This document shows positions 1 through 39,400 of a stretch of 64,000 bases of DNA, in pieces. A model generated the notes under the pieces. That model saw only the letters and a list, made by a program, of their open reading frames with translations. It did not search any database and was not told the origin of the DNA. The stretch is taken from positions 4,235,573-4,299,572 of the forward strand of contig CM026433.1 of the NCBI GenBank assembly GCA_014871385.1, in the 5' to 3' direction. A program made the position numbers and the translations under genes. Numbering within the stretch: the first letter of the stretch is position 1; each line of letters begins with the position of its first letter. This DNA comes from Ceratodon purpureus (taxonomy: Eukaryota > Streptophyta > Bryopsida > Pseudoditrichales > Ditrichaceae).

Positions 1-3000
1 TGGGCTTCGAGCACACCAGGTACTGAGGCGATGCGATGTTGCATAGTGGCTGTGTCGTGTAGAGAGAATTGTATAGGATGACTTGGAAGTGTGTGCTGGA
101 GTTGTGGAGATTGGTGGGCAGCGATAGTTGGCGAGTTGGATGAGTGTGGGGAAGCGTAGAGCATGTGATGAATATGTAATGGTTGATAGAGGGAGGATAT
201 GAAGATGAATATGCGTGACGTTTTGATCGTCACGGCTGAGTGGAGTTGTAACGAACGGTGTGTGTGGCAATGGATGTTGGGAGAAGGCGGGGCGCAGACA
301 GCAGGTCCGAGCTCGAAAGGAGGGGCAGATATCCAGCCAGTGCAGGTGGACGACACGGTTGGGTTCGAGCAGATCGGGGGGTTGGCACACTACATCGACC
401 AACTGAAGGAGATGGTATTCTTCCCGCTGCTGTATCCGGATTTCTTCGCCAAGTATCACATCACCCCGCCTCGAGGGGTTCTGCTTTCGGGCCCACCGGG
501 GACGGGGAAGACGCTGATTGCTCGGGCGATGGCGAGTGCAGCGTCGAGGGCGGGGCAGAAGGTGAACTTCTACATGCGGAAGGGAGCGGATGTGCTTTCG
601 AAGTAAGTGATCCGACGCAATGGATGGTGGTTGAAGTCGGTGAGAGATGCATGTGGTGGGTTGAGTTTGGAGCATGTAGGAGCATTGGCGTTGGAGTGAC
701 GTTGATGTGTGTCCGGGTTGCAGGTGGGTGGGGGAGGCGGAGAGGCAGCTGCGTATGCTGTTCGAAGAAGCGCAGCGGTGCCAGCCGTCGATCATATTCT
801 TCGACGAGATAGATGGGTTGGCTCCCGTACGGTCGAGCAAGCAGGAGCAGATCCACAACTCGATCGTGTCGACGCTGCTGGCCCTGATGGATGGGCTGGA
901 TTCGCGCGGTCAGGTGGTGGTGATCGGTGCGACGAACAGGATAGATGCGATCGACGGAGCGCTGCGGCGACCGGGGCGGTTCGACAGGGAACTGATATTG
1001 AACCACCCGACGTTCGAGGCGCGAGTGGAGATTCTGGACATCCACACGCGGAAGTGGCAGAAGCCTCCGTCGGAGGAGCTGCGGAGGGAGCTGGCAGCGT
1101 CGTGTGTGGGGTACTGCGGAGCAGATTTAAAGGCGCTGTGTACGGAGGCAGCCATTCGAGCGTTCCGGCGGAAGTATCCGCAAGTGTACAGGTATTGGTG
1201 CGGGGGCTTGTTGGTGGGATAGTTGCGTGTGTCGTGCTCGGGTTTTGGGACACTGCGTTCGGTGTGTGCCATTGTGCGGTCTTTTGTTGGCCTAGTTTGA
1301 GAAGTGGTGTCAAGTCGGAGGTATGTTGAATGAGGCGCGAGAGGGGAGCGCTGTGTTGGTTGCGGGCTCGTCCGAGAACTGTTGTAGGATTGTTGGATTG
1401 GTGGAATCGGTGTGTGAGTGGATGAGTGGCATTTGGAGTTGGAGGGATTCTGAGGTGGAGGAATGGGAGGGGTTTTGCAGGAGCGACGAGCAGTTTGTGA
1501 TCGACGTAGAGTCTGTGGACGTGGAGAGGCGGCACTTCTTGGAGGCGGTGTCTGCGATCACGCCTGCGTCCCATCGGGGGGCCGTGACGTATGCAAGGCC
1601 ATTCTCAGCCGTGATCGCACCGTGTCTGGAAGGGCATCTGCAAGCGATCATGAAGAAGCTGTCGGACATCTTTCCGGTGATGAAGGGGGACGTATCGAGC
1701 AGTAACCAGTCAGACAGCGAGGAGGATGAGAGCCCGGAGCAGCTGGCTCGGCTGTTCGGATTGGGGTGCAGCGCGCCTCTGGTGTACAGACCGAAGTTTC
1801 TTCTGTGTGGGAGGGAAGGTGCTGGCCTGGTGAGTGTGGCACTTGCGGATGGGTGTAGTGGAAGTGGGTGTTTGATGGTTGTTACCCTTATATTGGTAGT
1901 AGAGTCATGCGCTGATGGGCAGTATGTGTGGATGATTTGATTGAGTTTATGTGCGGGTTGTTGATGAGAGGAGTGTTGAGAAGACTTGTCGAGCGGAATG
2001 GATGGCAATGTCGTGTTGTTGGCACGAAGTAAGGCCGTTTTGAGAGCCGCGAGGGTATCCAGAGTGGTGATCTGATTGGCCTCGATCGTGATGAGTGTGT
2101 TGGGGCCCGTGGCTGGAGGTTGTGGAGTGAGAGGATCGTTGGGTTTGCGAGGTAAGGCACTGACTGGGTGGATATGGCTGTGGGTGCAGGACCATGTGGG
2201 ACCAGCGGTGTTGCACGAGTTGGAACAGTTCCCGGTCCATTCGTTGGGGCTGCCGTCACTTCTGTCGGACCCGAGTGCGAAGAGCCCTGAGGAGGCATTG
2301 GTTCATATCTTTGGGGAGGCCCGCAGGAACACACCGTCGATACTATACTTGCCTCAGCTTCACCTGTGGTGGGAGACGGTATGTTTTTGTGGTTCGCAGT
2401 CTGTGATATGGATGACTGGTGCGTCCGTTTAAGGGGTCGAAGTTGGTAGATATTGTTACGGGTTGAAAATGAGCGATGTGCAGGCAGGAGATGGCGAGAT
2501 TCTGGATTCGGATGTTGTCGTAGTGGGTGGTGATCACATGATAAGCTTGACAGTGGTTGGGAACGGAATGAGTCGTGTATTGTGGTTGCTGAGGGGAGGT
2601 CGCGACGGAGTGAAATGAGGGGTGTCTGCACTGCTGGTGGTTGCAATGTAGTGGTTGTACGTTGCACGGGGTTGTGAAGCGAATGAAATGCGGTGTGGCG
2701 GTTGTGGTTTTGACAGTCGTTGTTGGACGTTGGCAGGCTCACGAACAACTGCGAGCTGTATTGAAGATGCTGCTGGGTGACCTGCCTTCCGATCTTCCGG
2801 TTCTGTTTGTGGGCACTGCTTCGGTGTGTGGAAAGGATCTGGACGAGGAGATACGTGCGTTGTTTGGGCACAACTGGTGAGTCGTTGAGCAAGGAGAGTG
2901 GTTTTGTAGTGGTTGTGGGAAATGTAGCGGGAAGGTTAGTAGGGCGTGCAGTCATGCGTGTCGCGGAGGTGGGCTTGAGTATGGATAGTCGGATTGGCGG

Positions 3001-5277
3001 TGCATAGCATGCGTGGAATGGGACGGTAATGGTTGGGTTGGGTGTGGCGCAGTTATGAAGTGAAGTTACCGAGCACGGAAGCGAGGTCGAAGTTCTTCTC
3101 GCAGCTGGTTGATGCGGCAGTCGCGGTTCCGAGGAGACGAGCAGTGAGTGGGAGTAAGCAGAAGGAGGTGCTTCCTGAGTTGCCGAAGGCGCCGAAAGTG
3201 GTGAAAGGACCAAGCGAGGCAGAACTTCGGGAGCGGGCGGAAGTGGAGGAGAACCACCTGAGGCGATTGCGGATGTGCTTTCGTGACATCTGTAACAGGT
3301 GCGAGCTACGGAATATGTGTCGTATGAGTTACTTTGATGGTCGTTGTTGGAACACCTTCGTCTTTTGAGCTGTTTTGCAGGAGTATGAGGGAGGTTTGGT
3401 CTAGTGTGTTGCAGTTGATGCAGCTGTGTGGTGTGTGGGAGGTCCTTGTGTCCTGGTGGTGACTGGTCTTTTTTGGGGGTGGGGTGATTGGCAATGACAG
3501 GCTTTTGTGCGAGAGACGGTTCAGTATATTCCACTATCCAGTGATGGACGACGAGGCTCCTGACTATCGAAACGTTGTGCACAATCCGATGGATGTGGCG
3601 ACGTTGCTGCAACGTGTGGATAGTGGACAATATCTGACGAAGAGGGCTTTCCTGGGCGACGTGGACTTGATTCCTGCGAATGCTCAGGTATGTGGTTTTG
3701 TGTGATGGTGTTGTGATGGTTTGTTTTGTGTTGATGAGTTGGAGGATTTGGCGTGGGCGTGTGGTGGTTGTGTAGGTGGAGATTGTTGTGAGTGTGCAAC
3801 ACATGGAAAGGTAGTTATGCGGGAGGAGTGAGTGTTTTTGGTTGAGTTTGAGGGTTCGACTTGCTGACGAGAGGGCGTGATGTTTTGCAGGAGTATAATG
3901 GGGATGACTATCAAGGAGGTCGGATTGTGAGTAAAGCATGTGCTTTGCGCGATGCGGTATGTTTTGTTGCTGGAGTCCAGTCATTCACCTGGAATATGGT
4001 GTTCGTGCGGGAGTTTTCTTTAATTCAGTTAATTGTATAGTGGGCATGCCCGGAAAATACTCTTCGAAATCATCAGCACCTAAGTTGTTTCTGACAGCCT
4101 TGTGCAATTGGCTTCTGAGGGTCTTATACTTTAGCAGTAGTTGTTTTTGTGTAGAATTCGACTTTATCCATGTCTCAGTTGACTCGTGGCAGTCTTTTGA
4201 CTTCTGGGAGTAGTCTGGCACTAGGACTAATGATGTAAATGTGTGGGACGAGCAGGTGCTGGGCATGGTGTCGTCAATAGATCCTGCATTGGTGAAGATT
4301 TGCGATGAGATAGCGGCCCGCGGAGGGCCTCCGCAGCTACCCGGAGTGCCGAGCGGTGTGTTATGTCCAGTTCCTACAGCTCCTCCAGTTGTTCGAGCGA
4401 GCGCAAGGCTGAGAGGGTTTCAACCAGAATTGGATGCTTTAAAGAACTCGGAAGGAATTGCTCGGCGCACACGGAGGAGCAGTGATCCTGGTATGATGTG
4501 TGTTGGTGACGTGTTGCATAATATGTGGTCTTTTTTGTGGCTGGAAACTTGATCTGAAACTGGTTCTCGAGGTGGCCGTAAGTGCCTTGGGACCGTACGG
4601 TCACGTTGAGGCCTATAGTTTTATCACTTTCTTGTTCTTTAAGGGTATAGGATTTGGGGAGAGTCTGCGACTGTGGTGTATTTAGAGACTCTATTCGCTC
4701 GCGATTTGTGGGGTGTATGGTTTGATTAGTGGGATTGGATTTCTGTCCACATTTGTATGCTTTATGATGTGGTGTTGGGTTGACAGCAGGTGAAGGAACA
4801 AATGGGAACTGCTCAGAAGATCCCGACGCATTGGAGGAGGCGCCAACGGAGGCCGTGGAGATGACCGTCGACAGGCAGGCCTCGCCAGGGGCAGAGACAT
4901 GTGATGATGCAAGACCCGACGTCGAGGATGAAGAGGATGGGAACGTCAACCAAGTGGCGGCGGAGCGGATCAGTCACAGGCAGGACCTTCGTGACGAGCA
5001 AAGAAAGGTGTCTCGTGAGCCGTCAAGGGAGTGCGAAGACGGTGGTGAGAAGAAGGATTCTTATGCGAAGGACTCAGAAGTTTTGGAGTCCCTGAAGCCA
5101 AGAATTGAGGCTGTAAAGCAGAAGCTTGTCCAGGATACAAAGGGATTTGGAGTGTTTCGGCTTGAGATGCTTCATGCCAGCATATGCAGGCTGCTCCGGC
5201 AGGTACATGGCGATTCGTGCGTCTTGAGATTGGGTTCTCTGGAGGCATTCATCGCGGACGAGTCGAACTTGCTATGA
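1..5277 (+). CDS. BRAT1: BRAT1/ATAD2-like bromodomain AAA ATPase, copy 1 (5' end outside window)
   Basis: Chromatin AAA+ ATPase of the ATAD2/Yta7 family, closest in memory to Arabidopsis At1g05910 (BRAT1), a nuclear protein reported to oppose transcriptional silencing. Visible exons: 1-19, 284-602, 724-1191, 1481-1829, 2190-2378, 2737-2876, 3053-3298, 3501-3687, 3891-3956, 4256-4490 and 4787 (or 4790)-5277; phases agree throughout. The first AAA domain has Walker A GPPGTGKT, Walker B IIFFDEID, sensor GATNR and arginine-finger region RRPGRFDRE, so it should hydrolyse ATP. The second AAA-like domain has lost its P-loop (GREGAGL), as is usual in the family. The bromodomain runs from about 3240 to 3956 and keeps the acetyl-lysine-binding Asn in YNGDD. 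An inverted second copy lies at 33411-42072. The N-terminal basic and acidic exons are beyond the left edge. The last two exons are clearly diverged from copy 2 but open, so the gene looks functional. Confidence 0.9.
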
Positions 5278-6556: not shown

Positions 6557-8853
6557 TCAGAAACCCCGTGGACGGCCCTGGTGTCGTCTTGTGCCGGGGG
6601 AACGAAGTAGGTTGCGGAAAGTGTCTGAGGGCTGAGCATCAGCAGATGTATTGAACGGGGAGTGTCGAGTAGTGTTAAACATGGTGGGAGATCCGCCCGA
6701 AAATGGTTGGGGAAGACTGTTCCCAGAACCTTGCCTCTGCGTGCGCATTGTCTGAGGTACACTGGGCATGTCAAAAGGGCCTGGCTGGGCAGCTTGCCGA
6801 GGAGGCCAGAAGTCACCAGTACCTGCCGGGGAATTCGTAGGCATCCCTGCATCCGCCACCTCCCCACTAGCTGGATGAGCATCATGTATCTGCTTTGCTA
6901 AACTGTACTTCTATTCAACGAGAATTGAACGATCATGACCAGAGTCACCATTCGTAACGGAAGACACAAATGGTTACTGATAATTAAAGCCACAGAAAGA
7001 ACGCAAATCTTACCAGATAACCCTGGACCCTGGGGTCTGAGGTCATCAAACCCTTTGAACGTCGGAGCGAAAGCATACGGATTGGGCCGGGGTACCACGG
7101 CTTGATTGTTGGGTGCAGGAGATGCAACTGACCGCTTCAACAGCTCATGCTCCTTCCTCAGGGCATCATACATCTCTTCCAGCTTCCTCTTCTGCCTGTC
7201 ATCATACTCACGACACGCATTACACGCAACAATAAACAATTGACCAAACAACCTCAACCCAGCGGTCGTGCCATGGACGCCTAAGCATTGTTAACACCCT
7301 ATCGTACTCGTCCTCAATTTCAAGAGAACTAACATCAGAAGGGCACAGAAGCCACAACCCTTGCAGCCGTACGCTACAGTTCCTTCTTAGTATTAACAAC
7401 TCCTGGGATAAACAAGTGCTCATGCTGAGCACATATCATATCTAGCTTAGGTGAGCAAAAAGCTGACACAATGTTACCTCGACTTCTCTGTGTATTTCTC
7501 TTGTATCTCCTTCTTGTCTTTCAGCATGGCCTCCCTCTCGTGTTCCATGCCCTGGATCCTCTTCATGGCTTTCTGGTATCCCGCATGTACTTGCTGCAGC
7601 TTTCCAGTGTACGCTTCCTCCACCTGGCTTATCTTCTGAGAGTAGGCGGCCTGCATCTGCTCACATTTCTGTCGAAAGTGCACAGCCTTGTTCACAGACA
7701 GCTGAACTTCCACGTCCTTCTGTCCGATCCAGAAGATCACTCCCTTGAACGCGCTTTTCATGACTACAATCTGTCAAGTGTTCCACAATTGCGCCCGTGT
7801 CATGCATCGACCAAACTATCAAAGCAGGTGCCTAAGTACCCAAGACCAGATATGGTGGAATACAGAATCAGCGCCAGAAACAAAAGATTGAGGATACTGC
7901 TCTGAGGTGCCACGCCAGCCATCACCATCTGAGCACAAGCAAGCTTCTCGTAAGTACTCTCAAGCTCCGCTTAGGTTGAGTCGTCGAGGTCTAATGTTTC
8001 TTATTTTACCACATCTAAGCTCATGATCGTGGCAAGTATGAACACGAAGCAGAGGTTGACATGCATTTTCATTTTGTTGCATCAGGTTTCGACATCAGAC
8101 AAAGCGGATATACTTTCTTCACGATCTCAACGACTCTTTAGCATATAATCACAATCTAAATCCACAATGCGTGGTACTACGATTGTGGTGCTCGTATTGT
8201 GCGCCTTCGCTACTCCTCCCAGACTTACAGCAAATTTCTGATTTGTTTGTGTTGAAAGCTATGTTTCGTTATGAGAGTACATTCAGTTTAAGCGTCCAAT
8301 TTCTGAGAATCCCCCAACATACAGCGATATCGTCCTCAATTTGATTACCAGCCCTAAGAGTACCCCTAGGACGAACATCGAGCACAGGTACTTACGTTGA
8401 TCCACTCGTCGCTTGGAGCCATGTCCACGGCCTTGATCTTGCTGCGGCCATGTCCACGGCCACACTCCAAACAGTTAGTGATACATTTGCCATGACTTGT
8501 AATCAGAACAGAGCTCATTGTCAAAGACTCATGAAAACACTGCATGCTCGCTCATTCTTAGCCAGCATCGAGGGGGAATCAAGAACTGCGAAAAGACCAT
8601 CACCTCTTCGACAGCATCTGCTCGCACAAGGGGCACGTAGCGTCCACGGAGCCCAAGATTTTCTGAGCATCCTCGGTACCTGAAGTTTACAGCGATCAAG
8701 GACTCCAACCACGACCGAGATGGACAACTAACATCCTGTCCGTCACTGATTCAATGATGATCTACTGATCGGCGATAGGATACAGAAAATATGTCCGCAT
8801 GTTGTGGCGACCGCGCGTCCCTCCAAGTTCTTCCAACATGAGTTGCACTTCAT
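6557..8853 (-). CDS. HEI10: HEI10 meiotic crossover RING E3 ligase
   Basis: Homologue of plant HEI10 (CCNB1IP1/Zip3 class), a SUMO/ubiquitin-type E3 ligase that marks class I crossover sites on meiotic chromosomes. Seven exons in transcript order: 8853-8784, 8679-8604, 8441-8396, 7928-7898, 7763-7478, 7195-7014, 6897-6557; 1032 bases, 343 aa (Arabidopsis about 304). The N-terminal RING has C3-C6, C19-H21-C24 and C39-C42 in place. MKSAFKGVIFWIGQKD matches the family block after the RING. Exons 5-6 encode a long coiled coil ending QKRKLEEMYDALRKEHELLK. The C-terminal tail has the conserved DFWPPRQ..GPFDMPS and FRNLLRSP motifs. The start gives the exact family N-terminus (MKCNSCW). All junction phases agree, and no break is seen. 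The right-arm copy at 27065 is broken, so this is probably the only working HEI10 in the window. Confidence 0.92.
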
Positions 8854-9348
8854 AATTCCTTCGGAAAATCCTATCCTCTACCTGACAAATCCTCCTCCGG
8901 ACACACGTGAACCAAGAATTACAATCAGCTCCTCCCGGACGAATCAAGAATTCCGAAGCGTGTCGTCGTATATGCTCGACCTTATTTCAGAATGTGAAAA
9001 CGAGAATGACACGACAGCGACTCGGTGATAAAACCTACCCTGCTGCAAGTTGTCACGGCAAACGAGCAAGACGAGCAGTAACAGCGGACAGTCACTAACT
9101 GCGATTCTTGGACAAGACGAGCATCATACATCTCGAATCACTTGCATTAGATGCATTACCTTACGCTATCTCATCTTGATCTGGTTTGGAGTTGCATCGA
9201 CCTCTGTAGGTAGCTCATACTCTAGAACAAGATTCCAACACTCTGACGCTATTCTCGAATCTCATCCTCGCTACGCGATCCTCCAATCCAACTAAAATGA
9301 AAACCCTAGCTACGGCGAACACTACACGCTGCAATCAAGCCGCGGGAC
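8854..9348 (-). promoter_or_regulatory. HEI10 upstream region with telo-box
   Basis: About 495 bases between the HEI10 start and the upstream microprotein ORF. The block is highly similar to 26578-27064 in the other arm. It holds a telo-box (AAACCCTA at 9301-9308; TAGGGTTT read on the gene strand), an element common near start sites of plant growth and cell-cycle genes. It may be HEI10 promoter, 5' leader, or both. I cannot place the transcription start. Confidence 0.4.
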
Positions 9349-9498
9349 TCATGAGAAGAATGTGAGCAACAGCGCGAGCACGAGAAGCAGGGTGACGACG
9401 GCGATGATCATGGTGGACGAGTTATCAGCGTCAAGTTCTTCCGCATGCGAGGAGCTCTCCCAATCGATCGCAGAGGGAGAAGAGCAGTGAGGATCCAT
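9349..9498 (-). CDS. Small single-pass membrane microprotein (49 aa), left-arm copy
   Basis: Short ORF starting MDPHCSSPSAIDWESSSH, Ser/Asp/Glu-rich in its first half, then one hydrophobic helix (MIIAVVTLLLVLALLLTFF) and a stop directly after it. The right-arm counterpart (26404-26577) keeps the frame, the acidic-serine head and the membrane helix although the two differ at several residues, which suggests selection on the protein. It lies on the same strand as HEI10, about 500 bases upstream, so it is either an independent tiny gene or an upstream ORF in a long HEI10 leader. The ATG context is gccATGG. I recognise no named family. Confidence 0.5.
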   Translation of the reverse strand: MDPHCSSPSAIDWESSSHAEELDADNSSTMIIAVVTLLLVLALLLTFFS

Positions 9499-9649
9499 GG
9501 CGGCAAGTGTGGAGCAAGATGAGGCAGCGGAGGCGAAACTAAGGCAAATGTTAGCGCATGCACATGGCCGAATGCAGGGTTTGTTGCGTTTGCTTGAGGC
9601 TGTGTCCGCGGAAGTTGAGGATGAAGGGTTTTAAACAAGTTTACGACAA

Positions 9650-12600
9650 TTTTGTTGCATTTTCTGGACAGAAATCAGAAGACCTGTTTTTGATTTAAAT
9701 ATGTCATAAAATTTGTACAACAAAAGCATTCAACTTGTTACAAAGGTGTTTTAGAAGTTGTGTTATAAAAATGTCACAAAAAAAAGATAAAACGGATTTA
9801 TGATATTTTTTATTCCCTTTTAACGTTATTCTTACATGTGCTAGAACAATTTTGCAGAAATGTAGTCATGTTGGGATAAGAAAAATGTGTCATTTTTTAT
9901 TATATATATTCATCTATTACGATCAAATAAAAATCATATGATTTTTTATTTTATTGCAACTTTGTAGGAGTTTTCAAGTTCTATTGTGAATATAAAAGTA
10001 AACTTTACATTAGTTTGGATACAATTTTATTATTTAGCATTGTAGAATTTTCAAGTATTTTAGCATTGCATGAATACATATCCATAATAAACTATCAATA
10101 AATCTTACTCACATTTTCCTTTACATAATTGTTAAAATTTATTAATTTTGTATCATGTATGTTATTGCTCTTAAGTACATCTATATAGGATTATGAAGAT
10201 CATGATCATAAATGTGATCTATTCTTAACAAGAAGAAGTTTTACTTTTAAATTATTTTTCTTGATTTGTATTAACATGTAGTTAAAATATAAACATTTAT
10301 TACATCTTTAATACATCTTATATTCAAATTTGGTCTTTATAAATTCACATTCATCTATGAAACTAAAGTTTTTGGACTACAAAGTGAAACTCACTAGTTA
10401 CAATCAAATTGATTTGCAAAAATCATATTCTTTTTACTAAATGATTCTACAAATCAAATTAAATTTATTGCCTAATTTCATATAAAAAATAATGAAGTTG
10501 TTACGTGATTTGAAATTTAACGTACATTTTGTAAGATCTTTTGGACAATCATTCAAAGTCTATAAATCTCTAGCATCAAAATTTTCAAACATATCTTGAA
10601 ATTCAGGATATTTCCTTTAAGGAGGTATCCTTCAACTATAATTCTTTCAGTGTCCTTTGTTTCACAAAAGTTTTAAGCGCTAATTTGATGTACCATTTGA
10701 TGTTCTTGTCCGTTGAAAAATAAAAAAAGAATTCCATTTGCAACAATACCATAACTACAGCAGCTTAGATTTCTCTAACTTATGCATAATTGTTGGTGAG
10801 ATTTCTCACTTGAACACCATATTCGTTAAATTGAGACTTTTCATAGTCTCAATTTAATGCTTAACTGTTGATTTTTCATTGATTTCTTGATTGATTCTAT
10901 ATTTGTCCAAAAAATTTGACTATATATGGGAAGATTATCCTTGAGCCAAGGATAATCTATAATTAGAAAGTCAAAAAAAAAGTTCAAATTGTTTCAAAAC
11001 AATTACTAAAATTGTAATAAAAAAAGTCTCAAAGTTCTAAAATTGTCTCAAAATAACAAATATGGTCATCTTGCACAAATGCCTTATGAATGTGGACAAT
11101 TGGATTATAGACTCTTTTACATGTAGAGTTATTAAATCTCAAATAACTTAAAAAGGTGAAGCCTAAGTATATTGTAAAGATCAATGACTTTAGTCCTGAA
11201 AACTTCTCTTGCTTGTTGAAGGCCTTGATAAGGGCAACTCCAAAATGTGAAGGTGCTCTTATATATAGAACTCAATCTTTTGATATTTTATATTTTTAAA
11301 TTTTTTTTTTCATTAACAGGATTTTTGTTTCCAATGAAATATTCAATCAATGATTTACAAACATTTTTGGTAATATGCATAGGATCAAGTAAGTAATGAA
11401 TCTTGTGCTAAAATATATTGTAAATAATTGAATGAGAATGTTTTGATCATATCTTTCTAGAAGACTCTTGCCCAAGTAGATTCATTTTGTAGAGCTGTTC
11501 AATTTGTTCAGATCCATAAAATATCGTGCAATATTTGATGCATACGTCTATTTTCATAAATGGTAAATTGACTAAAACCAACAATTTTTAGCCTCGAAGA
11601 ATGAAGAAGGAAAGGTGCTTTCATCGTGGAGCACTTTATCTTAAAAAATCTGCACATTTAATAATAAAAATAGATTTGTAAAATGCATTTTACTTTGCAA
11701 AAGTAAAAGTGATTTGTAAAAATGAAATTGATTAAGTAATTTTGAAATATTAGTGAAAAAATCAATCTATTTATTAATCATAATTGATTATTAAAGAAAA
11801 GAGGGGTTTTTACAAAAATTTAAGTGATTCCCGAAATAAAAGTGATTAGTAAGAATTGTACTGGTTGGAGTAAAATTTAAACACTTTCTCTAATTTAATA
11901 ATTTTAAACACTTTCTCTAATTAAATAATTTAAACACTTTCTCTATGTCTTTCAAGGAGGTTTTTTGAGGCTATTGAGTTGTACAAGAAAGTAGATTAGA
12001 ATCACAGGAATTTTGTTTTAATTTAAGACTTGTAGCAATAAAACAAATTAATATACAATATTCTAACCTCTTGTATTGGCCTTTCCAATTCTACTCTTGT
12101 CCTTTCATATTCTAAACTATGTACTTGAAGATGGTATGGTCCAGAAGGATGGCGGGTATGAGGAATAAAATTAATCATAGATCCATATTGAATATTGATA
12201 TGATGTTCAACTATATCATGTGCATGTTTATATAATCCTTTACAATCATTGCAATAGCATGAATAAAAACATTTATTTGATCGCTTTGATATATTGTTTT
12301 GTGAAGTGAAGTAACCTTGTCTTGTGGCGATAAGTTCACATCAACAAATTTAGATGCAGGTTCTAATAATTCAATAAACATATTACTATCAGAAAAACTA
12401 GCATCATTCATTTAAACTCTAGTGTGCATTATGCACCTTCCTAATAATCTCCAGTAATCATAAATTGATATTGTAGATGATTTAGAAATTATTTATCTGA
12501 AGATAATGAAATGTATCTGAAAAGTATACAAAAGCTTTCAGGATTCAAAATAAGGAAAACAATTGAACATGATTTAGAAGCTCAATCTTCACTACACCTC

Positions 12601-12770: not shown

Positions 12771-12779
12771 AATCTAACC

Positions 12780-13440: not shown

Positions 13441-13459
13441 AAATTTAGTGATATTAATT

Positions 13460-19080: not shown

Positions 19081-19091
19081 GTGTGTGGCAG

Positions 19092-25366: not shown

Positions 25367-25375
25367 ATTAATTCA

Positions 25376-26577: not shown

Positions 26578-27064
26578 TTTGCTAGTAGTGTTCGCCGTAG
26601 CTAGGGTTTTCATTTTAGTTGGATCGGAGGAACGCTTAGCGAGGATGAGATTCGAGAATAGCGTCGGGGTGTCGGAATTTTGCTTTGGAGCATGTGCTAC
26701 TTACCGAGGTCGATGCAACTCCAACCAGATCAGAATGAGATAGCGTAAGGTAATGTACACAATGGCCGTGATTCAAGATGTATGATGCTCGTCTTGTCCA
26801 AGAATCGCAGTAAGTGACTGTCCGCTGTTACTGCTCGTCTTGCTCGTCTTGCTCGTTTGCTGTGACAACTTGCAGCAGAGTAGGTTTTATCACCTAGTCG
26901 CTGTCGTGTCTTTCTCGCTTTCACATTCTGAAATAAGGACGAGCATATACGACGACACGCTTCGGAATTCTTGATTCGTCCGGGAGGAGCTGATTGTAAT
27001 TCTTGGTTCACGTGTGTCCGGAGGAGGATTTGTCAGGTAGAGGATAGGATTTTCCGAAGGAATT
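26578..27064 (+). promoter_or_regulatory. Upstream region of the HEI10 relic, with telo-box
   Basis: Counterpart of 8854-9348, including the telo-box (TAGGGTTT at 26602-26609). The high similarity to the left arm suggests this promoter/leader could still be active. Confidence 0.35.
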
Positions 27065-28450: not shown

Positions 28451-29057
28451 GTGCTAAATTGGTCATGGAACTTTTGAGAATTTAGATGATGATTGGTTGT
28501 CTGTAAATTCGACGTGGTCAATGTGCACATTCTTGATTATGGCAGGTCAAAGACGATTGGTTGTGGCTGGTGGGGGACAATGATGTGATTTTTGCTTGGT
28601 TCATGGCTCTTTAGTTTATTTTTTATCTAAGAGCATCCCCAGTAAGCCTGTAAGCCTGAGAACGTCGTTCTCCCAAACCTGAGTGTCAATCCGAAGCAAA
28701 ACATTCCAAAACCGTTTATAGGTTTGCCCCTAAAAAACCTTCCAAAACCAGGATTCAACGTATAAATTACAGACTTACAAGCTTGAATACGGGCTTTTCC
28801 CCTGCTGGCCTGAACCGCAATTCACGTACTTCCACTTCTTTCCGCTTTCAGGTTTCCAGTACAAGCCTTACTGGGGCTAAGGGTTAGTGTTGCAGATATT
28901 CTTATAACGCGCTGTTTGATGCAATTTTTATTTTTATTATTTATTTATTTATTTAAATTTATTTATTTATTTTAGTGCAAAAGGGAGAAGATATATAATT
29001 CGGAGCACATTCTACAAAATTGTCCAAAGCATCTCTCAAGAATCTTGAACACAAATA
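28451..29057. other. Spacer between the HEI10 relic and ATR3
   Basis: No gene seen. Contains the small inverted-terminal element at 28631-28877 and a TTTA microsatellite at about 28925-28973. The last part is probably the 3' UTR of the minus-strand ATR3 gene. Confidence 0.5.
28631..28877. mobile_element. Candidate MITE (about 247 bp)
   Basis: Begins GAGCATCCCCAGTAAGCCTG and ends, read inverted, GCCCCAGTAAGGCTTGTA, giving imperfect terminal inverted repeats of about 16 bases. The GAGCATCCCCAG start resembles ends of short non-autonomous DNA transposons in plants. No coding content. Target duplication not clear. Confidence 0.45.
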
Positions 29058-31287
29058 TCACGACCATGCCTCAACTACATACCGACCCTTGCGCTCAAGA
29101 TCTCTCAAATACTTCGAGACGGAATCGTGAGGCCATCCTGTCTCCTTGGCGATGACACTCTCAAAAGCTGACAATACATCAGCTGGCATCTTATCGGCAG
29201 ATCCCGCAACATAAATAGCTGCTCCAGACTGCATCATCTGCAAAACTTTTTTCCCCTGCTCTGTAATTTTATGCTGCACGTAAATCTTCTCCAGTTGATC
29301 TCTAGAAAAAGCAACAAAAAAGTCTCCACCGACTTCAACTGACAGGACATTTTGGCCTTGAGACCAAGCAGACCAATCTGCTCCGTACAACAAGTCTTTG
29401 GACTTATACCGACAGCCAAAGAAGAATAAAACTGGTGCCACCGCTTCTCCCTTGTTCAAGAGTGCTATTCGCTCTTGAATAAATGATCGGAAAGGAGCGC
29501 AGCCGGTTCCAGGTCCAACAAGGATCAGCGGCACAGAAGGAGAAGGCAGAGATATAGCACCCTTTGTAAACCAAACAGGTAAGAAAACCTTCCCCTTCCC
29601 CTGCTTGGGATCAAGTGAGGCGAGCCACGAAGAGCAGAGACCTCTTCGTTTCCTCTTAAATGGAGTCGTCCACTCAACCACAGCTACTGTCAGGTGAGCT
29701 TCATTTGGATGTGCCAAAGGGGATGATGAGATGGAGAAGGAGCGCTGTTGAAGACGAGGCACAGTTTGCAGAAGCCATTCAAATGGTAACTGTAAGCAAC
29801 ACCTGAAGAGAGTTACGGAGGTTGAACCCAACACTTAAACAGATTCACGTATCAAGGAACAGCCGCTCTTCTTCAAGGAACATCCCTGAGCTGAGGGTTC
29901 AATTACTAGCAAAAACCGATGGAGGTCAAAAGTGATAACTCACCGATGAAATATATATGACATTTAATTATGACATAAACCGTAGACAAATACATAAATT
30001 GATACCTGCTAGCAGATCACACAACAACTTTCCGACAGAAAGCCAACTCACCTGAACAGACGGAAAGTCCTCTAATACTTCAAGAACTGTCCGTCGTTCT
30101 CTTTGATTATAGCGATACAAATCATCACGGCCTTCAGGAGTTGAAAAATACTGCAGTCGTTCCTTCTCATGTTCAGCTTCGGCGAAGTGGCTCATAACTT
30201 CAAAAAAATAACGGCGAGGGGAAGCAGAATCTATATCCATGAGAGCTTCGACAATTGTCCTAAGCGAAACCACTGTTTTTTCTGACATAAATTCAACGTC
30301 TACTGCCTGCGTAAGAGTGCAAACATCACTGTTTGCGGCTTCCACCGTAACCAAGGTATCTCCATCCAGGCCACAGCGACTTACGAATTTGTCAATAGAT
30401 GCTTGGTTTTGGCACGGCAACAAGGTCAATATATCCCCCGGTACATATCGAGTTCCCGAGCTTCCTAATTCCAGTTCAATGTGCCGAACGTCTTGGTCGT
30501 GATCTTCACTAGTGATCCGAGAATTCGTCAGCAGCTTAGCAAATACTGGCATGCTTGGGGGACCATACCCCGTGCTATTACTGTTGTGCTCCCTTGCATT
30601 TCCGAAAGGGTTACCCGCAGAGTCTACCATAGCCCGTGCTCTCCCATGTTCAATCCATCTTTCTACAATATCCGTCTTTGATCTTTCAGGCATAGCAGCT
30701 AGGTTAGACTCTGGCGCTCTGGAATCATAATAAGTGACCCTGTACTTGGGAGGATCCAGAATAATAATACCTGTTTCATCCGGTCTGCGGTCTTCAAGCC
30801 CAGCTGGGAGTGGAACATGCTGGCGCAACGCAACCCACAGCTCCGCTAACCAAGGGTCCAAACCGGCCTCGAAACCAGATGGGTGCTGATCATCTCCCAG
30901 CCCTCTGGGCACCACGGCCTGTCCACCCAAATCCAACAGCCTCCTGTCCAACTTCTTCCCGGTGACGTTATACTTCTGGTACCCAGAGTCGCCCAACCCG
31001 AACACGGCGAAGAGAGTCGACTCCAACCACCTGTGCCCCAAGCTTCTCCGTAACAACGACCTCCAAAACGCTCTCATCGACTGCGGCGGCTCCCCCTGTC
31101 CCGTCGTCGACACCACGAAGACGACCACACTCTCCTGAGGTAGCTCGTTCGCGTCATACAAGTGCATGGACTCTACCACAGGCTTGAAGTGATGGCGTGC
31201 CGCCTCTCGTCCCACGCGCTCCGCTACGTCCTGCGCGTTCCCAGTCTGGGTTGCGTACAGAACCAGCATCTTCTGCCGCTCCCCCAT
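29058..31287 (-). CDS. ATR3: NADPH-dependent diflavin oxidoreductase (ATR3/Tah18/NDOR1)
   Basis: Cytosolic diflavin reductase that passes electrons from NADPH through FAD and FMN to the Fe-S protein DRE2/CIAPIN1, at the head of cytosolic iron-sulphur assembly. Two exons, 31287-30052 and 29789-29058, joined in phase; 655 aa (Arabidopsis ATR3 about 623). N-terminal flavodoxin domain: LVLYATQTGNAQDVAERVG, VVSTTGQGEPP and FGLGDSGYQKYN. The FAD/NADPH module has SASPRRYFFEVM, RSFSISSSPLAHP, KGLCSSWLASL, VGPGTGCAPFRSF and the aromatic end VEAWS. The chosen start gives MGERQKMLV, matching the family; an in-frame ATG six codons upstream (31305) is the alternative. Usually an essential single-copy gene; here present only in the right arm of the inverted duplication. 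Confidence 0.95.
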
Positions 31288-31550
31288 CTCTCCCGACCCT
31301 CGCATTTCTCAATCACATACGATCGGAGACTTCACATAAAGTTTCTGGTACGTAATTATCTCTTGCCGAAAAGATTTATGAGCTACCACAGGAAATTGTG
31401 GAAGCAGAGGTGCTACCACCTCCACCCAAACCCTATTTCTTCAAACTTCCAACTCCCGCTTCCAGTTCGCTTGCCAAACGTGAACAGAACTAAGTTAAGA
31501 GAAGTGTGCAACTCGACGATGAATTCCCAAGCAGAAGTCGATACACTATC

Positions 31551-31965
31551 CTAAAACCAATGACTCGGATTAACTGCCATAAACCCAAATTTGGCAACCG
31601 CGTCCTGTCGAACCTCCTCCTTCAAATCCAAACTGGTACACCATTCAATATTCAGTAGTACTGTTATGTTAGTTGAGTCAGCCCAAGCACACTCCGGAAA
31701 TCTAACGCACGTCGACCTTGGAGCACGGAGAATTTGTAACCCCACTAGATTCCTCAACGCATCTGGAGGGGGTTCCAACTTCCTTCCCGTTTTCCACACA
31801 CGGAGCTCTTTCAACTGCGTCAGATTACCCACACTCTCTCTCGGGGACAGATGCTACTGCACACATACGGAGCTCATCCAATTGCACCAAATTGCCAAGC
31901 ACCTCGCTAAAAGCACCCGAAAGCTCCTTCATAGCCTCCCCATCATCATAGCCAGCTCCCCATCC
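31551..31965 (-). pseudogene. Leucine-rich-repeat fragment (resistance-protein type)
   Basis: The minus strand encodes LRR-like text in two adjoining frames: LSGAFSEVLGNLVQLDELRM, then SVGNLTQLKELRVWKTG and DALRNLVGLQILRA. The pattern (xLGNLxxLxxLx) is that of plant intracellular receptor or LRR proteins. A frameshift separates the parts, and no upstream domain is seen, so this is a gene fragment. It sits head to head with ATR3, about 260 bases from the ATR3 start. Confidence 0.6.
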
Positions 31966-33410
31966 ACCACCGTCATGCCCACTAACTTAACCCTCCCAAG
32001 ATAGCTTCTCCTCTCTCCAAGCCAGGGAGGGAGAAAGAGAGACAAACTTCGTCTCGGAAGAGACCCACGTGAATTAAGTGTCTCAAATGCGAAATTTTTG
32101 ACGACTCAGCTGTTGCAGCTCAGGATGAACATGGAGCTGTTTGAACTTCAGAATGGTGAATAATTGTACGAGTAGTTTGCTGGGTTATACTAGGGTCAAC
32201 CCTTTAGAAACTCATGCCCGGCCCCAAGTAGCCTTCTAGGATTTGTTGCTAACGTTCATGTTTTCAATAGTCGTCGTCGCTGCAGAACATATTAATACAT
32301 ACTACAAGGAAATATCCTATAGAAACAAGGAAATTCAGGCTCTAAATGAAACTTGTAATTACAACCAGGTCCTGATGCTTCCAACAACTTGCCATATGTA
32401 GTTGGTTTAATAAACTTGCTGAGGATAACCATGGCCTCAACCCTACAGTCTGAACTTGCGGTGGTCAATCAAATCACCATTACTAGTGGTCATAATTTAG
32501 AATAATGTTTCGTCACTGAACGTGATCAGTGTTATTGACCATTTGTATAGTGACTAAAAGCATAAGAGAATCTGAATTGTATAACTGAAAGAGAACAAAT
32601 TTCTATATATATTAATGATATATACATGTTTGACATTTGTGGGTTCTATCCCCCATTTCGCGTAGTCTAGTTTTGATGGAGCTTGTATTTTAATTTATGT
32701 GTCATCAATTTCATCTCTTTTAAGGTTGGAGATACGTACTATTTTAACTGTTTTTTGGAACTAGGCGGTATTTTGCACGGGACTTAAATGTGTTTCTTGC
32801 TCATCCTCATAGAAAGGAATTGTAAACGCAAGCATATAAAACGTAGACCTGAATTTGCTTCGTACTGGGTGTCAAGACACTGTATTTACCCGTATCAAAA
32901 AATGCTGCAGATCATCAGAAGGAGCATTTACACATTTTAACCCTTTCACAGCCTTCTATCACTGCAGTAACTGGATAAAAACTACTACCCTGATCATTCG
33001 TGCTCATAAATGTCTTTCTCAATTCCTCCAGTCGCCACATCCCATCGACCCGCACTTCAAACTCAATTGAGCTCAGACCTCTGTGATTCACAAGCCAGAA
33101 AATTTACGAGCACTATGTGGTTTTGTGTATGCCAAAATGAAAGAATAACCGCGACAATTCGTCTCCAACTTACCCCACGCTCAGATTCGAGATTAGTCTC
33201 TCAAGATACGCCCAATAAGCCTTGTGATCTGCACGACAACTCCGCTGATCCGAGGATGGTTTCAACTCCACAAGTTTGACACACCGGAAATGATCGCCAG
33301 AACCAGGGCCTCATCAGGCCAAGCCGATGTCTGAATAGTCCCACCCTCCTCTATGCGCACTATCTGACGCACAATTGTGCAAGCTCGTTTCATATGCTCA
33401 TGGCGTCTAC
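31966..33410. other. Spacer downstream of BRAT1 copy 2
   Basis: No gene recognised. About 32700-33410 is the diverged counterpart of 5278-5950 in the left arm and probably contains the BRAT1 3' UTR. The rest (about 32000-32650) has no left-arm match. Confidence 0.5.
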
Positions 33411-36400
33411 TCATAACAAGTTCAATTCCTCGTCGATGAATGTCTCCAGAAAACCCAACCTAGAGGTGCACGAATCACCATGGCCCTGCCGGAGCACCCT
33501 GCATATGCTGGCATGGAGCATCTCCAGTCGAAATACTCCAAATCCCTTCGTATCCTGGACAAGCTTCTGCTTTACAGCGTCGATTCTTGGCTTCAGGGAT
33601 GCCAATAGTTCCAAGTCTTTCTCAAATAAGTCCTTCTCGACACCATCTACAAACTTCGTTGACGGTTCACAAGACACCTTCCTATTTTCGTCACAAGGTT
33701 CTTGCCTGTGACTGATTGTCTCCGCTGCCACTTGGGTGGCCTTCCCACGCTGTTCGTCCTCACTGTCAGGTCTTGCATCGTCATATGTGTCAGGCCCCAA
33801 AGACGCCTGCCTGTCAACAACCATCTCCACAGCCTCTGCTTGCGCCTCTTCCAATCCAACGGGATCCTCCGAGCAGTTTCCATTTGCTCCTTCAACTGTT
33901 GTCAACCGAGCAACACACAATAAAGCATACTTGTGTGAACAGAAACATGATCCCGACAGACAGAAAAACCACATATGAACCAACTTGACAATTGTCTGCT
34001 TATCTATATACCCTCTCAATATACCGCAATTGCAGACTCCTTCTGCCTCTTAAAGAATAAATAAATAAAAAACTACAGGACTAAACGAGACCGAGTACTT
34101 GCATGCCCTTCCGACCATGTCGGCCACCATTTCCATAACCCATGTACAACAACCGAACACACCCTACGCATCATGTCACCCACACACATCATACCAGGAT
34201 CACTGCTCCTCCGTGTGCGCCGAGCGTTCCCTTCCGAACTCTTCGAAGCATCCACTTCTGGTTGAAATCCTCTCAGCCTTGCGCTCGCTCGAACCACTGG
34301 AGGGGCAGCAGCCACCGGACATAACACACCCGTAGGAACCCCGGGTAGCCGTGGAGGCCCTCCGCGGGCCGCTATTTCGTCGCAAATCTTGACCAATGCA
34401 GGATCTATTGTCGACACCATGCCAAGAACCTGCTTGTTGCAACCATTAACACCATTAGCCCAAGACAGGACAGAATAGTACTACCTCGAATGCTGCCTAA
34501 GCCACTCAAACATGTCAACAGACTCATAAGATCAAACAAAGACAAGGTTAAAGATCACGTTAAACACATAACAACAAACGCCATAACAGAGTGCTACCGT
34601 CAAAAACCTAAAGAAGCAAGATAAAAGACTCTGCCAAAACCTCGAACCCCGAAAGTGCATATCCAACATAAAAACAAAAGTCAGACAAGAAAACAACAAC
34701 CACTTAGCATTCCAAGAGCATTAATTCAATGACATATCCAAACCATTCCACAACAATGTCAAAATCCAATAGAAAAAATAATACGAGTCGGTCAAATGAC
34801 TCGACTGATTGAACGCAACATACCGCATCGCGCAAAGCACATGCTTTACTCACAATCCGACCTCCTTGATAGTCATCCCCATTATACTCCTGCAAAACAT
34901 CACGCCCTCTCGTCAGCAAGTCGAACCCTCAAACTCAACCAAAAACACTCACACTCCTCCCGCATAACTACCTTTCCAGGTGTTTCACACTCACAACGAT
35001 CTCCACCTACACAACCACCACACGCCCACGCCAAATCCTCCAACTCATCAACACAAAACAAACCATCACAACACCATCACACAAAACCACATACCTGAGC
35101 ATTCGCAGGAATCAAGTCCACGTCGCCCAGGAAAGCCCTCTTCGTCAGATATTGTCCACTATCCACACGTTGCAGCAACGTCGCCACATCCATCGGATTG
35201 TGCACAACGTTTCGATAGTCAGGAGCCTCGTCGTCCATCACTGGATAGTGGAATATACTGAACCGTCTCTCGCACAAAAGCCTGTCATTGCCAATCACCC
35301 CACCCCCAAAAAAGACCGCTCACCACAAGGACACAAATATCTCCCACACACTACACAGCTGCATCAACTGCGACACACTAAACCAAACCTCCCACTATCC
35401 AATAAACAGCTCAAAACAGAAGGTGTTCCAACAACGACCATCAAAATAACTCAGACGACACATAATCCGTAGCTCGCACCTGTTACAGATGTCACGAAAG
35501 CACATCCGCAATCGCCTCAGGTGGTTCTCCTCCACTTCCGCCCGCTCCCGCAGTTCTGCCTCGCTTGGTCCTTTCACCACTTTCGGCGCCTTCGGCAACT
35601 CAGGAAGCACCTCCTTCTGCTTACTCCCACTCACTGCTCGTCTCCTCGGAACGGCGACTGCCGCATCAACCAGCTGCGAGAAAAACTTCGACCTCGCTTC
35701 CGTGCTCGGTAACTTCACTTCATAACTGCGCCACACCCAACCCAACCATTACCGTCCCAATCCACGCATGCCATGCACCGCCAATCCGACTATCCATACT
35801 CCTGCACACTTGCGCAACACGCACAACTGCACGCCCTACTAACCTTCCCGCTACATTTCCCTCAACCACTACAAAACCACTCTCCTTGCTCAACGACTCA
35901 CCAGTTGTGCCCAAACAACGCACGTATCTCCTCGGCCAGATCCTTTCCACACACCGAAGCAGTGCCCACAAACAGAACCGGAAGATCGGAAGGCAGATCA
36001 CCCAGCAGCATCTTCAATACAGCTCGCAGTTGTTCGTGAGCCTGCCAACGTCCAACAACGACTGTCAAAACCACAACCGCCACACCGCATTTCATTCGCT
36101 TCACAACCCCGTGCAACGTACAACCACTACATTGCAACCACCAGCAGTGCAGACACCCCTCATTTCACTCCGTCGCCAGCTCCCCTGACCAACCACAATA
36201 CACAACTCATTCCGTTCCGAAACCACTATCAAGCCTACCATGTGACCACCACCCACTACGACAACATCCGAATCCAGAATCTCGCCATCTCCTGCCTGCA
36301 CATCGCTCATATTCAACCCGTCACAACATCTACCAACTTCGACCCCTTAAACGGACGCACCAGTCATCCATATCACAGACTGCGAACCACAAAAACATAC

Positions 36401-39400
36401 CGTCTCCCACCACAGGTGAAGCTGAGGCAAGTACAGTATCGACGGTGTGTTCCTGCGGGCCTCCCCAAAGATATGAACCAATGCCTCCTCAGGGCTCTTC
36501 GCACTCGGGTCCGACAGAAGTGACGGCAGCCCCAACGAATGGACCGGGAACTGTTCCAACTCGTGCAACACCGCTGGTCCCACATGATCCTGCATCCACA
36601 GCCATATCCACCCAGTCAGTGCCTTACCTCGCAAACCCAACGGTCCTCTCACTCCACAACCTCCAGGGACGGGCCCCAACACACTCATCACGATCGAGGC
36701 CAATCAGATCACCACTCTGGATACCCTCGCGGCTCTCAAAACGGCCTTACTTCGTGCCAACAACACGACATTGCCATCCATTCCGCTCGACAAGTCTTCT
36801 CAACACTCCTCTCATCAACAGCACACACATAAACTCAATCAAATCATCCACACATACCGCCCATCAGCGCATGACTCTACTACCAATATAAGGGTAACAA
36901 CCATCAAACACCCACTTCCACTACACCCATCCGCACGTGCCACACTCACCAGGCCAGCACCTTCCCTCCCACACAGAAGAAACTTCGGTCTGTACACCAG
37001 AGGCGCGCTGCACCCCAATCCGAACAGCCGAGCCAGCTGCTCCGGGCTCTCATCCTCCTCGCTGTCTGACTGGTTACTGCTCGATACGTCCCCCTTCATC
37101 ACCGGAAAGATGTCCGACAGCTTCTTCATGATCGCTTGCAGATGCCCTTCCAGACACGGTGCGATCACGGCTGAGAATGGCCTTGCATATGTCACGGCCC
37201 CCCGATGGGACGCAGGCGTGATCGCAGACACCGCCTCCAAGAAGTGCCGCCTCTCCACGTCCACAGACTCTACGTCGATCACAAACTGCTCGTCGCTCCT
37301 GCAAAACCCCTCCCATTCCTCCACCTCAGAATCCCTCCAACTCCAAATGCCACCCATCCACTCACACACCGATTCCACCAATCCAACAATCCTACAACAG
37401 TTCTCGGACGAGCCCGCAACCAACACAGCGCTCCCCTCTCGCGCCTCATTCAACATACCTCCGACTTGACACCACTTCTCAAACTAGGCCACCAAAGGAC
37501 CGCACAATGCCACATACCAAACACAGTGACCCAAAACCCGACCACAACACACGCAACTATCCCACCAACAAGCCCCCGCACACGTACCTGTACACTTGCG
37601 GATACTTCCGCCGGAACGCTCGAATGGCTGCCTCCGTACACAGCGCCTTCAAATCTGCTCCGCAGTACCCCACACACGACGCTGCCAGCTCCCTCCGCAG
37701 CTCCTCCGACGGAGGCTTCTGCCACTTCCGCGTGTGGATGTCCAGAATCTCCACTCGCGCCTCGAACGTCGGGTGGTTCAATATCAGTTCCCTGTCGAAC
37801 CGCCCCGGTCGCCGCAGCGCTCCGTCGATCGCATCTATCCTGTTCGTCGCGCCGATCACCACCACCTGACCGCGCGAATCCAGCCCATCCATCAGGGCCA
37901 GCAGCGTCGACACGATCGAGTTGTGGATCTGCTCCTGCTTGCTCGACCGTACGGGAGCCAACCCATCTATCTCGTCGAAGAATATGATCGACGGCTGGCA
38001 CCGCTGCGCTTCTTCGAACAGCATACGCAGCTGCCTCTCCGCCTCCCCCACCCACCTGCAACCCGGACACACATCAACGTCACTCCAACGCCAATGCTCC
38101 TACATGCTCCAAACTCAACCCACCACATGCATCCCTCACCGACTTCCACCACCATCCATTGCGTCGGATCACTTACTTCGAAAGCACATCCGCTCCCTTC
38201 CGCATGTAGAAGTTCACCTTCTGCCCCGCCCTCGACGCTGCACTCGCCATCGCCCGAGCAATCAGCGTCTTCCCCGTCCCCGGTGGGCCCGAAAGCAGAA
38301 CCCCTCGAGGCGGGGTGATGTGATACTTGGCGAAGAAATCCGGATACAGCAGCGGGAAGAATACCATCTCCTTCAGTTGGTCGATGTAGTGTGCCAACCC
38401 CCCGATCTGCTCGAACCCAACCGTGTCGTCCACCTGCACTGGCTGGATATCTGCCCCTCCTTTCGAGCTCGGACCTGCTGTCTGCGCCCCGCCTTCTCCC
38501 AACATCCATTGCCACACACACCGTTCGTTACAACTCCACTCAGCCGTGACGATCAAAACGTCACGCATATTCATCTTCATATCCTCCCTCTATCAACCAT
38601 TACATATGCATCACATGCTCTACGCTTCCCCACACTCATCCAACTCGCCAACTATCGCTGCCCACCAATCTCCACAACTCCAGCACACACTTCCAAGTCA
38701 TCCTATACAATTATCTCTACACGACACAGCCACTATATAACATCGCATCGCCTCAGTACCTGGTGTGCTCGAAGCCCAATGACTCCCAGCTTGACCCCAC
38801 CCGCTTGCAGCCATTCCCAAATTGCCCAAACCCGGCGTCTCCAGCCCCGGAGGTAGCCACGGATGAGACGGTCCCCGACCCATCCGCAACCACGGAGCCG
38901 CACCTTGGTCCTGCTCATCCACCAGCAATGAGTCGTCCGAATCATCGGCCCTCGACGACCGATGCCTTTTGTGTGACCTGCTCGCCGACCGCCGACTCTC
39001 CCGCCCACGCTTTGTGCCGCTCCCTGCAATTCAACGTCAAACCATCACACTCCGGATCATCAAACCGACTGCCTTATCAGCTACCTTCCGACCAACATAC
39101 ACAGGGCTACTCACAACTGCATTCTGCTCAATCAATCTCGCTTCCCACAAGCTTCTTGGCAGAAACACAAGAGACAGCCAGAACTACTCTAACATCAGAG
39201 AGGCTCGAACCCCTCTTGAATACACCTTCATCAGGGTGCAATGCAAGATCCCTCGGATAAAAGATCATTCAACCCCGTCTAACTCAGCACACTCCTCAAT
39301 ATCCTATTAGGCGATGATGAAATCCCCGAAGCAGACCCACCCTGTAAAAGCTCATATATCCAGATCGGGAGATCATCTCCCATTCCAACACCAAACAAGA

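Follow-up and report, generated by a model that had tools for sequence, protein, structure and literature searches.

Arms of several ages in a BRAT1–HEI10 inverted duplication of Ceratodon purpureus: probable gene conversion between mirror-image repeats at an apparently autosomal locus

How can the two arms of one inverted duplication be nearly identical along part of their length and strongly diverged on both sides of it? This question is raised by the window analyzed here, a 64,000-nucleotide stretch of the Ceratodon purpureus genome (KC19 assembly, C13:4235573-4299572). A BLASTN comparison of the window with itself confirmed the gene-bearing inverted duplication proposed by a sequence-only reading, with BRAT1, HEI10, and a microprotein in mirror order. 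The left flank was joined to the window to give a 124-kb stretch, and negative coordinates denote positions to the left of the window. Two long inverted arms flank a non-palindromic spacer: the left arm (+) extends from about -5446 (C13:4230126) to 9556 and the inverted right arm (-) from 26348 to 44104, as delimited by BLASTN and a weaker in-register outer match. The arms are 15.0 and 17.8 kb in size, and the palindrome spans 49.6 kb including the spacer, which is larger than previously estimated. The two-arm layout stands, but not its limits: the inner ends lie at 9556 and 26348 rather than at 9650 and 26300, the spacer (9557-26347) measures 16.8 kb instead of 16.6 kb, and position 38779, given as the end of the right arm, is the mirror of the window edge.

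Within the window, the longest inverted match is 1-3963/38778-34817 (97.8%), and its coordinate sums of 38779-38780 agree with the description of the outer part as nearly gap-free. The inner matches are 4227-4520/34458-34165 (86%), 4740-5291/33945-33397 (81%), 5683-5802/33015-32899 (84%), 6611-6856/28437-28192 (80%), and 7804-9554/28127-26348 (88%). The register shifts in the inner arms, with coordinate sums of 38685 and then of 35048 and 35931. As had been expected, the arms run beyond the left edge of the window: the match continues to -4119/42900 and, more weakly but in register, to about -5446/44104. The outer end of the right arm (42890-44104, minus strand) is old and diverged, with a K80 of 0.41. 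The mixed ages of the arms, the inner change of register, the diflavin gene found only on the right, and the truncated right HEI10 are additions to the earlier description.

C13 (16.46 Mb) is probably chromosome 12, an autosome. The UV chromosomes are reported to make up about 30% of the Ceratodon genome (PMC13120521). C6, which at 110.5 Mb accounts for 30% of the genome, is presumed to be the sex chromosome, and the palindrome on C13 would therefore not be sex-linked.

Both arms carry an intact BRAT1 gene encoding a chromatin-binding AAA ATPase with a bromodomain. According to our hand-made models, BRAT1-L (plus strand; ATG at -3307, stop at 5277, 1-5277 in the window) has 16 exons and encodes 1267 aa, whereas BRAT1-R (33411-42072, minus strand) has 16 exons and encodes 1265 aa; each reading frame has a single terminal stop. 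The last ~240 residues contain 54 of the 69 differences between the proteins. The two genes are thus both open and nearly identical in the part encoding the ATPase and bromodomain core, but they differ in the C-terminal tail. None of the 120 BRAT1 protein matches listed is named as a moss protein, and neither the BRAT1 and HEI10 proteins of the window nor their Ceratodon counterparts are among the protein matches listed.

The near-identity of the arms is confined to a tract of about 8.0 kb, which the best two-rate segmentation (log-likelihood gain of 588) places at -4014 to 3963 on the left (plus strand; 1-3963 inside the window) and at 34817 to 42794 on the right (minus strand). It begins in the BRAT1 promoter, about 0.7 kb upstream of the ATG, extends through the bromodomain exons, and makes up about half of the left arm. 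Here the arms are 97.2% alike (7728 of 7950 sites); the remaining 222 sites (2.8%) compare with 507 differing among the 1521 sites aligned immediately beyond the tract. The noncoding K80 is 0.034 in the tract (4239 sites), as against 0.414 outward of it (1151 sites, taken as noncoding) and 0.450 just inward of it (774 sites). Coding regions show the same step: dS is 0.023 over 1026 tract codons and 0.521 over the 239 inner codons, which belong to the last two BRAT1 exons. The oldest parts of the arms are 62-69% alike. By BIC, two states describe the noncoding sites of the arms inside the window better than one (2577 vs. 3030), and a third state is worse (2594 vs. 2577). The moss substitution rate is about 9e-9 per site per year, from which the arms would presumably be roughly 22-24 million years old and the tract under 2 million.

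The two ends of the tract differ. The inner end is sharp and falls in a BRAT1-L intron (3957-4255, plus strand) that has no convincing alignment to its right counterpart (34430-34823), so the tract stops where the arms are non-homologous. The outer edge fades, with a K80 of 0.11 at -4108 to -3379, which suggests that several events rather than one long event may lie behind the tract. GC3 is 0.69 in the tract vs. 0.56 and 0.52 in the inner exons, although these values compare different parts of the gene.

A second, shorter tract was found in HEI10, whose product is a homologue of the RING-type crossover E3 ligase. HEI10-L (6557-8853, minus strand; seven exons read by eye) has an open frame of 343 aa. 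HEI10-R (27065-28458, plus strand) is a pseudogene: its coil exons are missing, leaving no match to left residues of about 80-240, and its last exon contains an in-frame stop. The tract covers the 5' region and exons 1-3, at 8403-9115 on the left (minus strand) and 26794-27525 on the right (plus strand). Its noncoding differences number 11 of 507, compared to 121 of 970 in the flanks (Fisher p = 5e-13), and an identical noncoding run of 200 sites in HEI10 was equalled in none of 10,000 shuffles. Smaller patches of high similarity surround the tract. The rest of the HEI10 block has K80 values of 0.10-0.15 (0.24 in the last exon), which lie between the old and young values; this could reflect earlier conversion, which is not proved. 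Further inward, a small membrane-type ORF lies at 9349-9498 (49 aa, minus strand), at the spacer-facing end of the left arm, and its right counterpart lies at 26404-26577 (57 aa, plus strand); both were read by eye.

Within tracts embedded in older homology, the arms are thus too similar for the age of the duplication. Judging from this one genome, an old inverted duplication of the BRAT1–HEI10–microprotein block with later non-reciprocal gene conversion from arm to arm, on what appears to be an autosome, is by far the most probable explanation. In its favor, the same arm shows different ages in register (0.414, 0.034, and 0.450). The block would first have been duplicated tail-to-tail; the arms, lying inverted to each other, would then have paired within a chromatid or between chromatids, and a break in one arm would have been repaired from the other. 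The most recent conversion on a large scale, in one tract or several, would have rewritten about 8.0 kb of BRAT1 and halted at the non-homologous intron. The last two BRAT1 exons would have escaped and continued to diverge, and a shorter tract would have formed in HEI10 even though its right copy is a pseudogene. The pattern of the main tract is directly visible in the alignment, and conversion is its probable cause. Two tracts of high similarity, each lying between stretches of more diverged in-register arm sequence, bear out the earlier remark that such palindromes are prone to conversion.

A second recent inverted duplication or a template switch (one-step break-induced copying) that overwrote the BRAT1 core of one arm would account for a main tract that is long, nearly gap-free, and sharply bounded on its inner side. 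It fits poorly with the tract being in register with the older sequence that flanks it on either side, with the gradual fading of its outer edge, and with the separate HEI10 tract and its surrounding patches, and we regard it as improbable.

Inverted repeats are known to cause misassembly, and assembly error had been raised as a possibility for this locus. However, it is very unlikely here that the arms were wrongly joined in inverted orientation or derive from a read folded back on itself: the arms are separated by a 16.8-kb non-palindromic spacer, differ by a K80 of about 0.4 beside the tract and by indels, and are distinguished by a one-arm gene, a one-arm MITE-like repeat, and an exon deletion, and there are no N bases in the window or in the joined 124-kb stretch. 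A foldback artefact would typically show almost perfect identity and a minimal or absent spacer, neither of which is seen. The reading of the arms as wrongly joined alleles or homoeologues was also rejected; the moss plant lives mainly as a haploid, and since its gametophytes are haploid, the arms are not two alleles.

Strong selection on the BRAT1 core agrees with coding sites differing least in the tract (1.1%), but can be dismissed almost entirely, as noncoding tract sites differ by only 3.3% against 31-33% adjoining on both sides, and selection on the protein cannot explain the HEI10 tract because HEI10-R is missing its coil exons and contains an in-frame stop.

A 1.1-kb BRAT1 fragment on C8, introns included, provides a relative date. 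Its K80 to the arms is 0.085 and 0.077, compared with 0.045 between the arms over the same region; the odd sites number 59 for C8, 27 for the left arm, and 19 for the right. Because it is farther from the arms than they are from each other there, the fragment was copied after the arms split (~0.45) and before their last homogenization. When polarized by this fragment, the changes comprise 19 AT-to-GC and 13 GC-to-AT substitutions, counts that do not establish a GC bias such as that reported for primate X palindromes (PMC8981503).

Two elements are present only in the right arm. One is an intron-bearing diflavin oxidoreductase gene (29058-31305, minus strand) with flavodoxin and FAD- and NAD-binding domains, which we take to be ATR3/TAH18. 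A tblastn search of positions 1-26000 revealed no remnants of it at an E-value of 1. The three other long copies in the genome have no intron, and no poly(A) run was found beside them. A recent retrocopy inserted into the right arm was rejected, as the right-arm copy has an intron. Since this copy is intron-bearing and the three others are intronless, the gene was more probably lost from the left arm than gained by the right, though this is not proven. The other element is a MITE-like dispersed repeat (28617-28876), which accounted for 41 of the 52 matches listed genome-wide for one query.

Phenomena of this kind are already known. The first report of large palindromes on a plant sex chromosome came from willow, in 2020 (PMC7023750). 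Like the Ceratodon locus, the W palindromes of Salix purpurea are nuclear, have gene-bearing arms, and show conversion in part of the arms, with identity varying along them (PMC7023750). However, they lie on a sex chromosome, and their arm identity is reported to average >99% within the shared part and to be 96-99% across most of the remainder (PMC7023750), whereas the present locus is apparently autosomal, with a tract 97% alike and oldest parts at 62-69%, and does not reach the >99% identity along most of the arms that marks sex-chromosome palindromes. The human Y palindrome P6 shares the inverted arms and conversion tracts of several kb; its tracts have a mean minimum of 2.1 kb and reach 9 kb (PMC3723533), compared to about 8.0 kb here, perhaps a sum of events. 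Human Y palindrome arms are >99.9% alike, with GC bias in P6 (PMC3723533), whereas about half of each arm is homogenized here and the polarized changes are those given above. Inverted gene pairs of C. elegans, which are divergent or convergent, are likewise old and more alike than their age predicts, but they have spacers of 126 and 414 bp as against 16.8 kb, and they were dated by comparing them with other species (PMC1803023) rather than by old flanking homology in one genome. Among the titles and abstract openings listed in the literature searches, none dealt with a nuclear palindrome in a moss, which does not prove absence.

The probable autosomal location and the mosaic of ages make the locus notable. 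It looks like a clear case of mirror-image repeats copying from each other, apparently outside the sex chromosome, where conversion could be studied without that chromosome's lack of recombination. The BRAT1 pair makes it possible to test conversion against selection in keeping duplicated chromatin proteins alike, and to ask whether conversion tracts are bounded by non-homologous introns. HEI10 dosage is reported to control crossovers in Arabidopsis (PMC5358726), which adds interest to a HEI10 pseudogene facing a working copy. The transcribed strand of BRAT1 is unusually G-rich, with introns of about 41% G and 11% C. We tentatively offer one further idea, which is rather unlikely as it stands: the palindrome might act as a partial concerted-evolution device, in which two BRAT1 anti-silencing proteins are kept to a common ATPase and bromodomain core by conversion and, behind the heterologous intron, the last two exons escape it, giving one core and two diverging tails, maybe with divided targets or partners. 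The G-rich strand might favor R-loops and the breaks that start conversion.

The spacer has a GC content of about 23-28% from 10 to 19 kb. In a genome search with positions 9700-19700, the 39 candidates scored out of 765 all matched one dispersed repeat, and the window itself was not among the matches listed. A six-frame Pfam search of 9700-26300 gave one weak GNAT match at about 20.6 kb, below the cut-off, in a GNAT-like gene region (about 20042-22454) with an 85% relative on C2. No tRNAs were detected in the window, and the sole match in an RNA-family search of it was an LSU rRNA fragment. The spacer also contains dispersed repeats (about 10800-11078, 23434-23620, and 25799-25983) and a 24-bp tandem array at 13461-14376.

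The comparison of the arms was extended beyond the window by 40 kb of left flank and 20 kb of right flank (negative coordinates lie to the left of the window start). From end to end the palindrome measures 49.6 kb: the left arm is 15.0 kb long, the spacer 16.8 kb and the right arm 17.8 kb. A single alignment at 96.5% pairs positions -4119 to 3963 with 42900 to 34817. Further out, an in-register match (62% over 1279 columns) continues as far as -5304/44055, and the outermost overlapping piece (69%) ends at -5446/44104; short tandem repeats are located at the outer arm ends on both sides. The spacer is partly repeated rather than wholly single-copy: the region 20042-22454, which has a weak match to a GNAT acetyltransferase, has an 85% relative on contig C2 (C2:10122747-10125200), and dispersed repeats, each about 185-260 bp long, occur at about 10800-11078, 23434-23620 and 25799-25983. 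With 39 of 765 candidates scored, the ~260-bp repeat at 10800-11078 has 39 listed matches, of which 25 fall on contig C6, the putative sex chromosome.

Both arms carry a BRAT1 gene with AAA, AAA lid and bromodomain domains. In Arabidopsis, BRAT1 is described as binding acetylated H4 and preventing silencing (PMC4899616). The hand-made models of BRAT1-L (plus strand, ATG at -3307, stop at 5277; 1267 aa) and BRAT1-R (minus strand, 42072 to 33411; 1265 aa) each have 16 exons and one terminal stop. GT/AG at the internal splice sites was printed by script for the last ten exons in both arms and for the first six in the left arm; the first six exons of BRAT1-R were positioned by eye. The closest relative among the best 120 of 7978 comes from Marchantia paleacea, at 73% over the 701 residues used as query. 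No moss-named protein is present among these 120, many rows of which are nameless, whereas the HEI10 search does return Physcomitrium and Sphagnum; annotation of moss BRAT1 may be poor, or the listing of that protein collection may lack it. A genome search with an 887-residue query, in which 51 of 126 candidates were scored, gave 31 matches. Away from this locus, the top match among those scored is at C1:25443276 (58% over residues 39-258); a fragment on contig C8 and weaker AAA matches are also listed.

The divergence of the arms changes along BRAT1. Over 1151 sites outside the BRAT1 core, K80 between the arms is 0.414; it is 0.110 along the outer edge of the core (-4108 to -3379, all 726 sites), 0.034 inside it (4239 noncoding sites) and 0.450 just inward of it (774 noncoding sites). 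The best single segment, -4014 to 3963 of the left arm, has 222 differing sites of 7950, versus 507 of 1521 in the adjoining aligned stretches. The coding sequence is consistent with this noncoding pattern: dN and dS are 0.0075 and 0.023 over the 1026 codons of the tract, versus 0.121 and 0.521 over the 239 codons after it. In the proteins, 69 of the 1267 alignment columns differ: 15 of these lie within the first 1027 columns and the other 54 within the final 240. A young tract flanked on both sides by old homology of similar age is, as a sequence pattern, the signature of gene conversion in an old duplication, and from this one genome we infer arm-to-arm conversion at the palindrome.

The C8 fragment, a BRAT1 piece of 1.1 kb with introns (C8:5169499-5170627), provides a third sequence for comparison. 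Over it, K80 is 0.045 between the arms, 0.085 between the left arm and C8, and 0.077 between the right arm and C8; among 1100 ungapped sites, C8 alone differs at 59, the left arm alone at 27, the right arm alone at 19, and all three differ at 2. Without exchange since a split at about 0.45, one arm would be expected to resemble C8 more closely than it resembles the other arm, so the closeness of the arms argues for exchange. In two exon stretches the C8 piece has gaps, of 14 and 4 bases, which suggest that it is a non-functional fragment.

An extreme excess of G over C is observed on the BRAT1 coding strand (-4000 to 5000 and 33400 to 42400), peaking in the introns; those of the left-arm tract have 51.7% GC and a skew of 0.59 (about 41% G and 11% C). 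An absolute GC skew of at least 0.35 is reached in five of nine one-kb windows in each BRAT1 gene, in none of 99 in the other counted parts of the joined C13 stretch, and in two of 138 in the other fetched loci (50 of these 138 being the same C13 flanks), both where the C8 fragment lies. Being common to both genes and the C8 fragment stretch and to no other window counted, the skew looks like an inherited property of BRAT1. GC3 is 0.69 in the tract versus 0.56/0.52 after it, which fits GC-biased conversion and, equally, a gradient along BRAT1. Polarised by the C8 fragment, the changes number 19 from AT to GC and 13 from GC to AT.

Divergence is patchy in the HEI10 block (7804-9556) too. K80 over all sites is 0.139 in 7804-8402, 0.0145 in 8403-8560, 0.022 in 8560-9115, 0.145 in 9116-9300 and 0.096 in 9300-9556, and noncoding differences number 11 of 507 within the second tract (8403-9115) versus 74 of 532 and 47 of 438 in its two flanks. 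HEI10-L is open (343-aa model), while in HEI10-R nothing matches residues about 80-240 of the HEI10-L protein and there is an in-frame stop; thus, the tract is not due to selection on the HEI10-R protein. Outside the tract, values are intermediate between the old and young ones, which earlier conversion would explain. Separately, a HEI10-derived fragment lies inside a dispersed repeat at loci L023, L024 (C7), L025 (C6) and L026 (C9); at three of these loci its matches fall in two different frames. The repeat is 97-99.96% alike between loci over 2.6-4.8 kb, and the fragment possibly reflects capture of the gene by a mobile element that was active recently.

An intron-bearing diflavin reductase gene (29058-31305) and a MITE-like dispersed repeat (28617-28876) are present in the right arm only; for the former, tblastn over 1-26000 gave no match. 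On the simplest reading, the order before duplication was BRAT1, diflavin gene, HEI10, and the middle gene was then lost from the left arm; insertion into the right arm is a less simple reading. Three further long copies, L035, L036 (C9) and L037 (C4), have no intron and 93-98% protein identity to the right-arm gene over the part searched, and therefore look like processed retrocopies, with the right-arm gene like their parent. The C9 copies lie within reading frames that stay open for 660 and 668 aa, and the C4 copy is split over two frames; a poly(A) run adjoining the three was looked for and not found. The matches listed also include a weaker one on C9 (76%) and one of 286 bp on C2.

The genome searched comprises 362 Mb in 151 contigs, the window being C13:4235573-4299572. 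Judging from numbering order, C13 (16.46 Mb) would be chromosome 12; C6 (110.5 Mb) is presumed to be the sex chromosome. The 67% identity of HEI10-L to its Physcomitrium homologue agrees with a moss origin. The Ceratodon palindrome resembles those on the sex chromosomes of mammals and on the willow W in that its arms appear to exchange sequence by conversion. Unlike that class, it apparently lies off the sex chromosome, and its near-identity covers about half of each arm at 97%, instead of over 99%. We place it in a broader category, that of inverted gene duplications with conversion between the arms.

Elsewhere in the window, 51624-52056 matches a fragment of eukaryotic LSU rRNA (model positions 1914-2341 of 3401, 138 bits). 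Neighbouring ORFs at 46406-49333 encode C1_2 (DC1-type) domains and a protein kinase, whose MLKL-type N-terminal match is weak and below the cut-off; these ORFs are related to proteins listed from Ceratodon.
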